Assembly (NCBI GenBank): GCA_029846755.1
Contig: JARWBI010000001.1
Coordinates: forward strand, 186,001-250,000
Direction: 5' to 3'
From: Falsirhodobacter flavus
GTDB lineage: Bacteria > Pseudomonadota > Alphaproteobacteria > Rhodobacterales > Rhodobacteraceae
Length of the DNA: 64,000 bases
Of this stretch, positions 12,122 through 16,388 are shown piece by piece. The position numbers and the translations under genes were made by a program. The notes below the pieces were generated by a model. The model searched no databases. It saw nothing but the letters and a program-made list of their open reading frames with translations, and was not told the origin of the DNA. Numbering within the stretch: the first letter of the stretch is position 1; every line of letters begins with the position of its first letter.

Positions 12122-12526
12122 ATGCAACCCGATCCCATCCTTCTAGTGGCTGCCAGCGACGTGCGCCAGAACGCCTATGTCCCCTATTCGCGTTTCAAGG
12201 TCGGGGCGGCGATCCGCACGGTTTCGGGCAGCGTTTTCAAGGGCTGCAACGTGGAAAACGTCGCCTATCCCGAAGGCACCTGTGCCGAAGCGGGGGCTAT
12301 CGCCGCAATGGTCGCGGCGGGTGAGACGCAGATCGCTGAAATCCTCGTGATCGCCGACAGCCCGGAACCCGTGCCCCCCTGCGGCGGCTGCCGGCAGAAG
12401 ATCGCCGAATTCGCGGGCCAGGGCGTTCCGGTCACGCTTTGCACCACCGACGGCAAGGCGCGGGGCATGACGGTGGCCGAATTGTTGCCGGGGGCCTTTG
12501 CGGCGACGCATATGGATCGGGCCTAG
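12122..12526 (+). CDS. cdd: Cytidine deaminase
   Basis: A 134-residue zinc enzyme deaminating cytidine and deoxycytidine to uridine forms. Both zinc/catalytic motifs are present: TCAEAGAI (Cys 54, catalytic Glu 56) and PPCGGCRQ (Cys 87, Cys 90); YVPYSRFKVGAA is the substrate-side signature. The length is that of homotetrameric CDAs. The start follows GGAGG. Its stop is immediately adjacent to the GTG start of deoA, so it opens a five-gene salvage operon. Confidence 0.97.
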   Translation: MQPDPILLVAASDVRQNAYVPYSRFKVGAAIRTVSGSVFKGCNVENVAYPEGTCAEAGAIAAMVAAGETQIAEILVIADSPEPVPPCGGCRQKIAEFAGQGVPVTLCTTDGKARGMTVAELLPGAFAATHMDRA

Positions 12527-13816
12527 GTGGACATCGCGCGGCTTCTGGCCGATCTGCGGGACGGGCTGCCGATCGACGTCGCGGGTTTTGTGCGCGGGCT
12601 GACGGATGGATCGGTCAGCGACGCGCAGGCCGGAGCCTTTGCGATGGGCGTCTGCTGCCGGGGGGTGGACACCGTTGCGCTGACGCTGGCGATGCGGGAC
12701 AGCGGGACGGTGCTGGACTGGGACCTGCCGGGGCCGGTGCTGGACAAGCATTCGACCGGGGGCGTCGGCGATCCTGTCTCGTTGCTGCTGGCCCCGGCGC
12801 TGGCGGCTTGCGGCGCCTATGTGCCGATGATCTCGGGGCGGGGGCTTGGCCATACTGGCGGTACGCTGGACAAGCTGGAGGCGATCCCCGGGTTCAGGGT
12901 GGAGATGGACGAGACCCGCCTCCGCCGCCAGATCGAACAGGCCCGCTGCGCCATCGTCGCCGCGACGGCCGACATTGCCCCCGCCGACCGCCGCCTTTAT
13001 GCCATTCGCGACCAGACCGGCACGGTGGAAAGCACCGCCCTGATTACGGCGTCGATCCTGTCCAAGAAGCTGGCGGCGGGGCTGCACGGGCTGGTGCTGG
13101 ATGTGAAATGCGGCTCGGGCGCGTTCATGAAGACCCGCGCCGAGGCCGAGTCGCTTGCGCGGTCGCTGGTGGATACCGCCAATGGAGCAGGCTGCCGCAC
13201 GACCGCGCTCATCACCGACATGAGCCAACCGCTGGCCATGGCCATGGGCAACGCGCTGGAGGTGGCCGAGGTGATGGAGACGCTGACCGCGACCTCCATC
13301 AATCCCGGATTGTGGACCGTGACCTGCGCCCTGGGCGGCGAGGCGTTGGCGCTGGGCGGTCTGGCCGAGGATGCCGAGACGGGCGAGGGGATGATCGCCG
13401 ACGCGCTGGAATCGGGCCGCGCCGCCGAATATTTCGCGCGGATGGTCGCAATGCAGGGCGGTCCTGCCGACTTTGTGGACCGCTGGCCGGACCGCCTGCC
13501 TTCCGCCCCCATCGTGGCCGAGGTGCCATCGCCCCGCTCGGGCCATGTCGCGCGGATCGACGGGCAGGCGCTGGGCATGGCCGTGCTGCGCCTTGGCGCG
13601 GGGCGGATGCAGGCGGGTCAACGGGTGAACCCCTCGGTCGGATTGTCCGAGATTGCCGGGATCGGCGCGGATGTTGATATGGGCGATCCCCTCGGCTTCG
13701 TGCATGCCGCGACCGAGGACGATGCCGCCGCCGCCATTCGCGCGGTTCAGGACGCCTATGCCTTTCAGGACCATGAATCGATGCAAGACCCCCTGATCCT
13801 TGGGAGGATCGTATGA
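12527..13816 (+). CDS. deoA: Thymidine phosphorylase
   Basis: A 429-residue protein of the glycosyltransferase family 3 fold, splitting thymidine (or deoxyuridine) with phosphate to base and deoxyribose 1-phosphate. DKHSTGGVGDPVSL (~residue 78) is the phosphate-binding signature and SGRGLGHTGGTLDKLE (~103) the family motif. Translation starts with GTG directly after the cdd TAG, with no gap. It overlaps deoB by four bases (ATGA). C-terminal domain with the GxVxxIDG segment (SGHVARIDGQALG, ~340) is complete. Confidence 0.96.
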   Translation: MDIARLLADLRDGLPIDVAGFVRGLTDGSVSDAQAGAFAMGVCCRGVDTVALTLAMRDSGTVLDWDLPGPVLDKHSTGGVGDPVSLLLAPALAACGAYVPMISGRGLGHTGGTLDKLEAIPGFRVEMDETRLRRQIEQARCAIVAATADIAPADRRLYAIRDQTGTVESTALITASILSKKLAAGLHGLVLDVKCGSGAFMKTRAEAESLARSLVDTANGAGCRTTALITDMSQPLAMAMGNALEVAEVMETLTATSINPGLWTVTCALGGEALALGGLAEDAETGEGMIADALESGRAAEYFARMVAMQGGPADFVDRWPDRLPSAPIVAEVPSPRSGHVARIDGQALGMAVLRLGAGRMQAGQRVNPSVGLSEIAGIGADVDMGDPLGFVHAATEDDAAAAIRAVQDAYAFQDHESMQDPLILGRIV

Positions 13817-14982
13817 CCCGCGCCTTTCTGATCGTGATGGACAGCGTGGGCATCGGCGGTGCGCCCGATGCTTCCGCCTTCGGGGACGAGGGTGCGAACA
13901 CGCTTCTGCACATTGCCGCTGAATGCGCGGCGGGCCGTGCGGATCGCGGGCGGCGGGGGCCGCTGGCAATGCCGGTGCTGGACGGGCTCGGGCTGGGCGC
14001 TGCGGTGACGCTGGCCAGCGGGGCGCAGGTGCCGGGGTTTGCGGCGCCGCCCTCGGGCCTGTGGGGCGCGGCGACGGAAATCTCGCGCGGCAAGGACACG
14101 CCGTCGGGCCATTGGGAGCTGTCGGGCGTGCCGGTGCCATGGGACTGGACCTATTTCCCCGACGCGCCTTTCCCCGATGATCTGGTGGCCGAGGTGTGCC
14201 GTCTGGCAGGGACGGACGGCATCCTTGGCAACTGCCATTCCGGCGGCATCGCCATCATGGACCGGCTGGGCGGGGAACATCTGCGGACGGGCTGGCCGAT
14301 CTGCTATACCTCGGCCGACAGCGTGTTCCAGATCGCCGCGCATGAGGAAAGCTTCGGGCTGGACCGTCTGCTGGCGCTGTGCGAGGCGCTGGCCCCGACT
14401 TTGCATTCGATGCGGGTCGGGCGGGTCATCGCGCGGCCTTTCACCGGGCAGCCGGGGGCGTTCCAGCGCACGTCGAACCGCCGCGACTATGCCATCGCGC
14501 CGCCGGGCGATACGTTGCTGGACCGGGCGCAAAAGGCAGGGCGGATGACCCATGCGGTGGGCAAGATCGGCGACATCTTCTCGCATCGCGGGATCGGCAA
14601 GCTGCACAAGGGCGCGAACGACGCGGCGCTGGCGGAGCATCTGCTGCGGCTGGCGGACGAGGCCGAGGACGGATCGCTGACCTTCGCCAATTTCGTGGAA
14701 TTCGACAGCCTTTACGGCCATCCGCGCGACGTGGCCGGATATGCGCGGCACTTGGAATGGTTCGACGCGGTGGCCGGGCGATTGATTGCGGCGCTGCGGC
14801 CCGGTGACATCGCGGTCTTCACCGCCGATCACGGCAACGATCCGACATGGCGGGGCAGCGATCACACGCGCGAACGGGTGCCGGTTCTGGTTGCGGGCGC
14901 CAGTGGCGAGCTGGGGCTTTGCGCCTTCACCGACGTCGCCGCGCTGGTCTCGGGCCATCTGGGGCTGCCCGATGCGGATTGA
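13813..14982 (+). CDS. deoB: Phosphopentomutase
   Basis: A 389-residue metalloenzyme of the alkaline phosphatase superfamily that converts (deoxy)ribose 1-phosphate to 5-phosphate. Metal motifs are visible: IVMDSVGIGGAPDA at the N terminus, GKDTPSGHWE with the phospho-acceptor Thr (~95), VEFDSLYGHPRD (~300) and FTADHGNDPTWRGSDHTRE (~340). It follows deoA with a four-base overlap and runs 11 bases into the next gene. Functionally it channels the deoA product into central metabolism. Confidence 0.96.
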   Translation: MTRAFLIVMDSVGIGGAPDASAFGDEGANTLLHIAAECAAGRADRGRRGPLAMPVLDGLGLGAAVTLASGAQVPGFAAPPSGLWGAATEISRGKDTPSGHWELSGVPVPWDWTYFPDAPFPDDLVAEVCRLAGTDGILGNCHSGGIAIMDRLGGEHLRTGWPICYTSADSVFQIAAHEESFGLDRLLALCEALAPTLHSMRVGRVIARPFTGQPGAFQRTSNRRDYAIAPPGDTLLDRAQKAGRMTHAVGKIGDIFSHRGIGKLHKGANDAALAEHLLRLADEAEDGSLTFANFVEFDSLYGHPRDVAGYARHLEWFDAVAGRLIAALRPGDIAVFTADHGNDPTWRGSDHTRERVPVLVAGASGELGLCAFTDVAALVSGHLGLPDAD

Positions 14983-15763
14983 ACTGGGGATCGAGTTGCT
15001 GGGCGCAGCCCCGGCCAGTTTCACCCGCGATCTGGCGCGTCGGCGCAGGATCGACCTGTCGGGCCTGTTCGACGGCGACCGTTATGCCCGCACCGATCCA
15101 GAGGCGCGCAAGGCGGCGGCGATCCTGTCCCGCCCCGAGGAGTATGCCGCGCTGGCGGTGATCGCCGTGGGCGCTCGCGATTTCGCCGAACTGCTGCTGA
15201 TCCCGGACGCGGATGCACCCGCCTTTCACGACCGCATTATCGCCATGCGCGAGGCGGTCCCGGCCAGCCTTGTCGCCACGCCCGAGGGTAAACGCCACGC
15301 CGTCGCGGCGGCAGAGGCAGGGCTCAACGGCGTGCTGCTGGACCCGTCGCAGGCAGATTTCGCATGGTGCCTCGATTGCGCGCGCGAGGCGGGGCTGCCG
15401 GTGATCCTGTCGGCGCGGACGGGCCTCGACGCCGCGTTGGCGTTCCAGCCCGCGCGGCTGCATCACGTTCCACCCATCGACGATCCCGCCCTGATGGAGC
15501 GGCTGGCCGAGGCGGGGACGTTCCTGCACCTGTCCCCTGCCACCGAAGGTTGGGACGCGGCCGGCCCGCTGTTTCACCGCGAGGTCCGCATCACCATCGG
15601 CAACGAAGCCCCCGCATGGTTCCCCGCCGATACCGAAGACCGGCTGGCGGATGCCCATGATTGGGACGAAGGTGTTTTCGCCCAGCTGGAACGGAATGCC
15701 ATTGACGCCGCCCTGTGCGATGATACGACCCGCGACCGCCTGAAGGAGAAGTGCAATGCTTGA
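14972..15763 (+). CDS. Adenosine deaminase-like protein lacking the catalytic residues
   Basis: A 263-residue protein in the operon slot where adenosine deaminase usually stands. By eye it follows the ADA layout: [14 protein letters not shown] matches the N-terminal ELHxHLEG...P region, then [30 protein letters not shown] and ITIGNEAP. Each family catalytic motif is altered: HxH is GIE, HAGE is SART, RIGHG is RLHHV, CPxSN is SPATE and SDDP is NEAP. The protein is also ~60-70 residues shorter than ADA, the central part missing. The frame is intact, overlapping deoB by 11 bases and upp by 8, so it is probably expressed. I infer a pseudoenzyme or repurposed protein, not an active deaminase. Confidence 0.7.
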
Positions 15764-16388
15764 TCACCTGACCGTCGTGACCCATCCGCTGGTCCAGCAC
15801 AAGCTGACCATCATGCGTAAGAAAGAGACGTCCACCGGGGGCTTCCGCCGCCTGCTGCGCGAGATTAGCCTGCTGCTGGCATATGAGGTGACGCGGGGGC
15901 TGGACATGACCACAACCCGCATCGAAACGCCGATGGAGGAGATGGACGCCCCGATCCTCGACGGCAAGAAACTGGCGCTGATCTCGATCCTGCGGGCGGG
16001 GAACGGGCTGCTGGACGGGGTGCTGGAACTGGTTCCGGCTGCGCGCGTCGGCTTTGTCGGGCTTTACCGCGACCCGGAAACGCTGCTGCCGGTGCAATAT
16101 TACTGCAAGGTGCCGGACCTGCTGGAAGACCGTCTGGTCATCGCGGTGGACCCGATGCTGGCGACGGGCAACTCCTCGGTCGCGGCGATCGATCTGCTGA
16201 AGGAGAAGGGCGCAAAGAACATTCGCTTCCTGTGCCTGCTGGCATCGCCCGAGGGGATCGCCACGATGAAGGCGGCCCACCCGGACGTCCCGATCATCAC
16301 AGCATCTGTGGATCGCCAGCTTGATGACCATGGATATATTGTCCCGGGGCTAGGGGATGCGGGCGATCGCATGTTCGGCACAAAATAA
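15756..16388 (+). CDS. upp: Uracil phosphoribosyltransferase
   Basis: A 210-residue enzyme making UMP from uracil and PRPP. Features: [22 protein letters not shown] at the N terminus (typical opening), [14 protein letters not shown], and the PRPP loop [18 protein letters not shown] (~residue 128); the C terminus [14 protein letters not shown] matches the uracil-binding flexible loop signature. It is the last gene of the cdd-deo operon, overlapping the preceding gene by eight bases, with a hairpin terminator ~80 bases downstream. Confidence 0.97.

Follow-up and report, generated by a model that had tools for sequence, protein, structure and literature searches.

Locus and gene neighbourhood

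The window, a stretch of 64,000 nucleotides from the genome (approximately 4.0 Mb) of Falsirhodobacter flavus, carries genes in the order cdd-deoA-deoB-X-upp (Table 1). The names cdd and deoA are putative, as are those of deoB and upp, which follow the initial annotation. The frame of X shares 11 bases with deoB and 8 with upp, which bears out the initial annotation, where an intact frame locked to both neighbours was described. The motif AAGGAG, likely the ribosome-binding site of upp, lies inside the end of X, so that this end is under constraint at the DNA level.

Table 1. Position of gene X, of features within it, of its neighbours and of two comparison loci
Feature	Position	Strand	Basis or remark
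cdd (cytidine deaminase)	12122..12526	+	start codon inferred
deoA (pyrimidine-nucleoside phosphorylase)	12527..13816	+	
deoB (phosphopentomutase)	13813..14982	+	
Gene X, putative pseudo-adenosine deaminase, 263 aa	14972..15763	+	open frame, ATG 14972, TGA 15761-15763
X residues 6-8 (GIE), opposite the HxH zinc ligands of active relatives	14987..14995	+	alignment columns, position from frame start 14972
X residues 147-150 (SART), opposite HAGE of active relatives	15410..15421	+	alignments; they place the gap following SA differently
X residues 211-214 (NEAP), opposite TDDP of active relatives	15602..15613	+	alignment columns
X residues 219-263, C-terminal helices, best shared part between the two subclades	15626..15760	+	alignments, position classes
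AAGGAG, likely upp ribosome-binding site, within the final X codons	15743..15748	+	read from sequence, function inferred
upp (uracil phosphoribosyltransferase)	15756..16388	+	
ADA locus of QY30	L036 5001-5951 (same genome as L007, G280)		sequence
ADA locus of AG16	L037 5001-5948		sequence

Descent from adenosine deaminase and predicted fold

Judged by profile similarity, X is a descendant of adenosine deaminase (ADA) along its entire length. An hhalign comparison of the short forms, i.e. X and its same-length relatives, with 12 active ADAs gave a probability of 100% and an E-value of 7.6e-43 over 261 columns (2-262 vs 2-320). The window protein scored 25.2 bits against the Pfam ADA model PF00962 (cut-off 27) and 80.8 bits against the ADA model NF006848 (cut-off 426), whereas the copy of F. 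xinxiangensis passes the Pfam cut-off (28.4 vs 27 bits). NF006848 matches all five short forms, and PF00962, at E up to 1, three of the five proteins. ADA models were the sole Pfam and NCBIfam matches of the window protein, so that membership in another protein family is out and the resemblance to ADA originally proposed is upheld; one of the five short forms gave a stray weak Pfam match to NIR_SIR_ferr (E 0.0063).

For the window protein AlphaFold2 predicts eight strands in barrel order (pLDDT 87.6, pTM 0.84), and a subclade B protein (that of Falsirhodobacter sp. 20TX0035) was modelled with a pLDDT of 93.2 and seven strands of at least three residues. Compared with solved ADAs, the window model is a (beta/alpha)8 barrel, and X is thus predicted to fold as a trimmed yet complete ADA barrel; both models were built on alignments containing active ADAs, by which the predicted fold was partly led. 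In a Foldseek search with the window model the top PDB match was the plant N6-methyl-AMP deaminase 6ijm (E 3.2e-8), followed by the CRISPR-associated deaminase Cad1; the TM-scores by query of the top matches 6ijm and 6iv5 were 0.77 and 0.74.

Loss of catalytic and metal-binding residues

Seven metal or catalytic positions were scored (H15, H17, H214, E217, H238, D295 and D296, in a numbering that we take to be that of mammalian ADA). In active relatives these positions spell HHHEHDD; the window protein has GES-HEA, F. xinxiangensis GDS-HEA, and F. deserti and 20TX0035 TDD-RGF; in the alignment of a further genome, G003, which lies outside the seven-position count, the losses are the same as in F. 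deserti. Six of the seven positions are thus replaced or gapped in the window protein. The zinc ligands H, H, H and D read G, E, S and E. HLH has become G-I-E, the E of LEG is L, S-A-R-T faces HAGE with the E position falling in a gap, S-P-A-T-E faces CPGSN, and G-N-E-A-P faces STDDP, the second Asp of which is Ala. The initial annotation, in which every motif had been replaced, holds for HxH, HAGE, CPxSN and SDDP; in subclade A, however, one His falls opposite the catalytic His of RIGHG (RIGHGV vs RL-HHV), an assignment that hinges on the placement of a one-residue gap, and no His occupies this position in the second subclade. None of the five short forms has a His in the first-strand motif. 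Approximately 60 residues are gone, but they are spread over several loops and all eight strands are kept in the model, in place of the single deletion of the middle that the same annotation described. From these residues we infer that X would be without deaminase activity.

Among 78 rows (the window plus those 77 of 80 loci that yielded at least 255 aa), 72 read HHHEHDD, the other six being the window, F. xinxiangensis, F. deserti, 20TX0035 and the Rhodobacteraceae bacteria QY30 and AG16. The same string was found in 87 of 88 loci from other genera (the best 88 of 209 genomes matching X, a set partly overlapping the first), QY30 being the exception; further dead ADA copies are possible among the weaker matches. 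Three Haematobacter loci (L066, L074 and L075) encode otherwise intact ADAs with CPGAN for CPGSN, a change also present in AG16.

Distribution

The closest copy of X, 92% identical, belongs to Rhodobacter (now Falsirhodobacter) xinxiangensis (G006). X occurs in five of seven Falsirhodobacter genomes, always short, dead and between deoB and upp; the remaining carriers are G003, F. deserti (G002) and 20TX0035 (G005), which form subclade B, while the window and F. xinxiangensis form subclade A. The same-length Falsirhodobacter relatives, in which the initial annotation allowed for metal residues kept in shifted positions, have lost these residues too. No match to X was found in G001 and G004, so that X is dispensable. 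The deoB and upp genes of G004 are joined by a short spacer that has an AAGGAG of its own. In G001 (L134-L135) upp lies away from cdd-deoA-deoB. In F. deserti (L131, 4853-4868) cdd and deoB are 14 bases apart and no deoA was found between them, unlike in the rest of the genus.

A search of the seven genus genomes with PF00962 revealed no intact ADA elsewhere; the window genome and G006 gave X as their sole match, and in this genome search G002, G003 and G005 gave no match at E up to 1. X therefore misleads annotation both ways, by a copy above the Pfam cut-off in F. xinxiangensis and by unmatched copies in those three genomes. Members of PF02578 (YfiH/LACC1 family) and of PF01048 (nucleoside phosphorylase family) were each present in eight of eight genomes searched.

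In the wider family X matched in 211 of 295 genomes. Of the 84 genomes without a match, 80 were searched for upp, which turned up in 75; 73 upstream regions, all from other genera (L137-L209), were examined. In 54 of these, no more than 250 bases and no ADA separate deoB from upp; two hold an ADA missed by the X search, 16 have no deoB in the stretch examined, and one shows a gap of 380 bases with no ADA match. This survey speaks to the absence of ADA from this place, not from the genome. Among the matches listed, a dead but retained ADA occurs only in Falsirhodobacter and in QY30/AG16. Related bacteria thus have, at one place in the operon, an active ADA, a full-length ADA depleted of its residues, a trimmed dead ADA or no ADA.

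Selection on X

Maximum-likelihood omega values (dN/dS) were obtained with a purpose-written codon model. Between the window and F. xinxiangensis omega was 0.108 for X, 0.063 for deoA, 0.060 for deoB and 0.030 for upp; within subclade B it was 0.114 (G002/G003), 0.137 (G002/G005) and 0.105 (G003/G005) for X. Omega = 1 was rejected in all four within-subclade pairs, with a 2dlnL of 80.9 for the window pair and of 121.5, 114.0 and 130.5 for the others, in line with the initial annotation of a gene that is selected and not drifting. For the window pair omega was 0.095 after five codons had been dropped at each end. In the same pair 53 of 78 differences fall on codon position 3, and selection on another frame is disfavoured, as the changes lie mostly at third positions of X codons. 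NG86 gave 0.144, 0.214, 0.250 and 0.282 for X in the four pairs, and YN00 0.169, 0.096 and 0.157 in three of them. By these estimates X is somewhat less constrained than working ADA, since five pairs of active ADAs gave NG86 values of only 0.033-0.142, most of them below those of X.

Between the subclades, the omega of X was 0.302 at 2.7 changes per codon, i.e. near saturation, vs 0.077 for deoB, and identity to the window protein was 37-39% for X vs 77-79% for DeoB. Compared with the figures within subclades, this means that X changed greatly between the subclades and was conserved within each. Purifying selection is keeping the X protein after the loss of its catalytic residues.

Position classes were taken from the predicted secondary structure, with gapped positions excluded. 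In two comparisons of subclade A with subclade B, the barrel mouth was identical at 10/35 and 11/35 positions, and the C-terminal helices at 26/45 and 25/45; the difference between the mouth and the helices plus C-terminus did not reach significance (Fisher p 0.08 and 0.12). Residues 21-40, together with the C-terminal helices, are where positions shared across subclades are concentrated. Inside subclade B conservation of the mouth equals that of the other classes, with 27/31 strand, 28/35 mouth, 62/82 helix and 31/45 C-terminal positions conserved between 20TX0035 and F. deserti. The contrast between mouth and helices is suggestive only, and may point away from a common nucleoside pocket.

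Number of losses

QY30 and AG16 also carry an ADA between deoB and upp, in which HHHEHDD has been altered at four or five positions (HHDQHGH in QY30, NHDEQAF in AG16); omega between the two was 0.187. As in X, H214 is lost (to D) and so are both aspartates of STDDP. Unlike X, these proteins are of full length and keep some motifs (HxH and RIGHG in QY30), and their hosts branch elsewhere on the tree of neighbouring genes. In this tree, which was built from the 73 of 84 records having cdd, deoB and upp, Falsirhodobacter stands with Cereibacter, and QY30/AG16 stand with Defluviimonas and part of Frigidibacter. A single clade uniting all nine rows of the two groups, a grouping named after the trees had been seen, was rejected by the neighbouring-gene tree (AU p 3.7e-6), which makes it probable that catalysis disappeared two or more times, Falsirhodobacter and QY30/AG16 being separate cases.

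In the tree of X itself the short forms adjoin QY30/AG16, but their branches are very long (approximately 4 changes per column) and the grouping was discounted, because long-branch attraction is likely. A single origin of all dead forms, for which this grouping would speak, was rejected on the same grounds together with the neighbouring-gene tree. The X gene of QY30/AG16 is compatible with the Defluviimonas group (p 0.39), and a horizontal transfer of X alone is possible. The two short subclades lost partly different loop segments, and trimming, or even death, may therefore have been separate in each.

Interpretation

X is probably, though with considerable room for doubt, a pseudoenzyme from a well-known family that is kept for non-catalytic binding or regulation of a putative partner. 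The role suggested in the initial annotation, nucleoside binding or control of the salvage enzymes, is a candidate. In the Falsirhodobacter lineage, an ordinary ADA between deoB and upp would have shed its zinc site together with its catalytic residues, with its loops trimmed and the barrel fold kept. The protein would still be made in the cell and, because its amino-acid sequence is still under selection, most likely acts by binding, either of a partner protein through the outer and C-terminal helices or of a ligand in the remodelled barrel mouth. We favour the protein partner over the remodelled pocket. The neighbouring salvage enzymes DeoB and Upp would be the first candidates, a guess guided by gene order. 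That the omega of X is about twice the values of deoB and deoA counts against a pseudoenzyme, as do the strong divergence between subclades, the NG86 values above those of most active-ADA pairs and the absence of X from two genus genomes.

Four other explanations were weighed. The mouth of the barrel might have been remodelled to form another active site that holds no metal, which would make X a new enzyme; the predicted barrel is kept, and strands and mouth are well conserved within subclade B, yet the mouth differs so much between the subclades that one common new reaction is unlikely, and the idea as a whole seems improbable to us. We hold it to be distinctly unlikely that the frame is a relic kept open for the DNA only, its amino acids irrelevant, with translation through X coupling deoB to upp and the sequence carrying the upp ribosome-binding site. 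The two overlaps, the AAGGAG inside X before upp, the quick divergence between subclades and the absence of X from two of the seven genomes would all agree with such a relic, but it predicts an omega near 1, and omega stays near 0.1 even without the five codons at each end. Moreover, the short spacer of G004 has its own AAGGAG, which makes X unneeded as a spacer, and deoB adjoins upp without an ADA in most of the upstream regions surveyed in other genera.

A recent loss of function, by which X would be caught in passing on its way to gene death and its low omega would date from before the loss, fits the two genus genomes without the gene. All five genus copies are dead, however, in both subclades, between which even deoB has diverged, and the low omega was measured between species inside each dead subclade; we regard a recent loss as very improbable, two separate early deaths, one per subclade, being possible. 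It is barely credible that X continues to deaminate adenosine or AMP by means of a metal site whose ligands have moved. The fold, the operon place and, for subclade A, the His opposite the catalytic one of RIGHG would speak for it, whereas the window protein and its same-length relatives have other residues at the equivalents of H15, H17, H214 and D295 and the first strand is devoid of His in every short form; a functional ADA with shifted ligands was rejected on account of those replaced equivalents.

Adenosine could still be used by way of a PF02578 protein and PF01048 enzymes. In vitro, two bacterial members of the PF02578 family converted adenosine to inosine and to adenine, according to PMC6978800. 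Such alternative handling would account for the catalysis being dispensable, but not for the retention of the protein. A tentative and rather doubtful extension is that an ADA encoded here in the operon holds, or readily acquires, another role without catalysis, in the control of nucleoside salvage. It would explain why two lineages lost deaminase residues yet kept the protein between deoB and upp, where many relatives have no ADA at all, and, if true, the active ADAs of related bacteria would be two-job proteins.

Comparison with known systems

A literature search for bacterial or catalytically inactive ADA, covering the beginnings of abstracts, returned nothing relevant. X resembles bacterial Add of the Paracoccaceae type (NF006848; PF00962) in its descent, its place between deoB and upp, the predicted barrel and the C-terminal DWDE...CD..TR region. 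It differs from Add in that the zinc ligands and most catalytic residues are replaced and that it is shorter in its loops. Pseudoenzymes are known in many enzyme families, and the selection measurable on X, as well as the parallel case offered by a second lineage, sets this one apart. Operon-encoded pseudoenzyme regulators such as HisZ are dead enzyme relatives kept beside the genes of a pathway. X shares this arrangement, and its own regulatory role is putative; if X regulates a neighbour, it would offer a small, testable case of the passage from enzyme to regulator.
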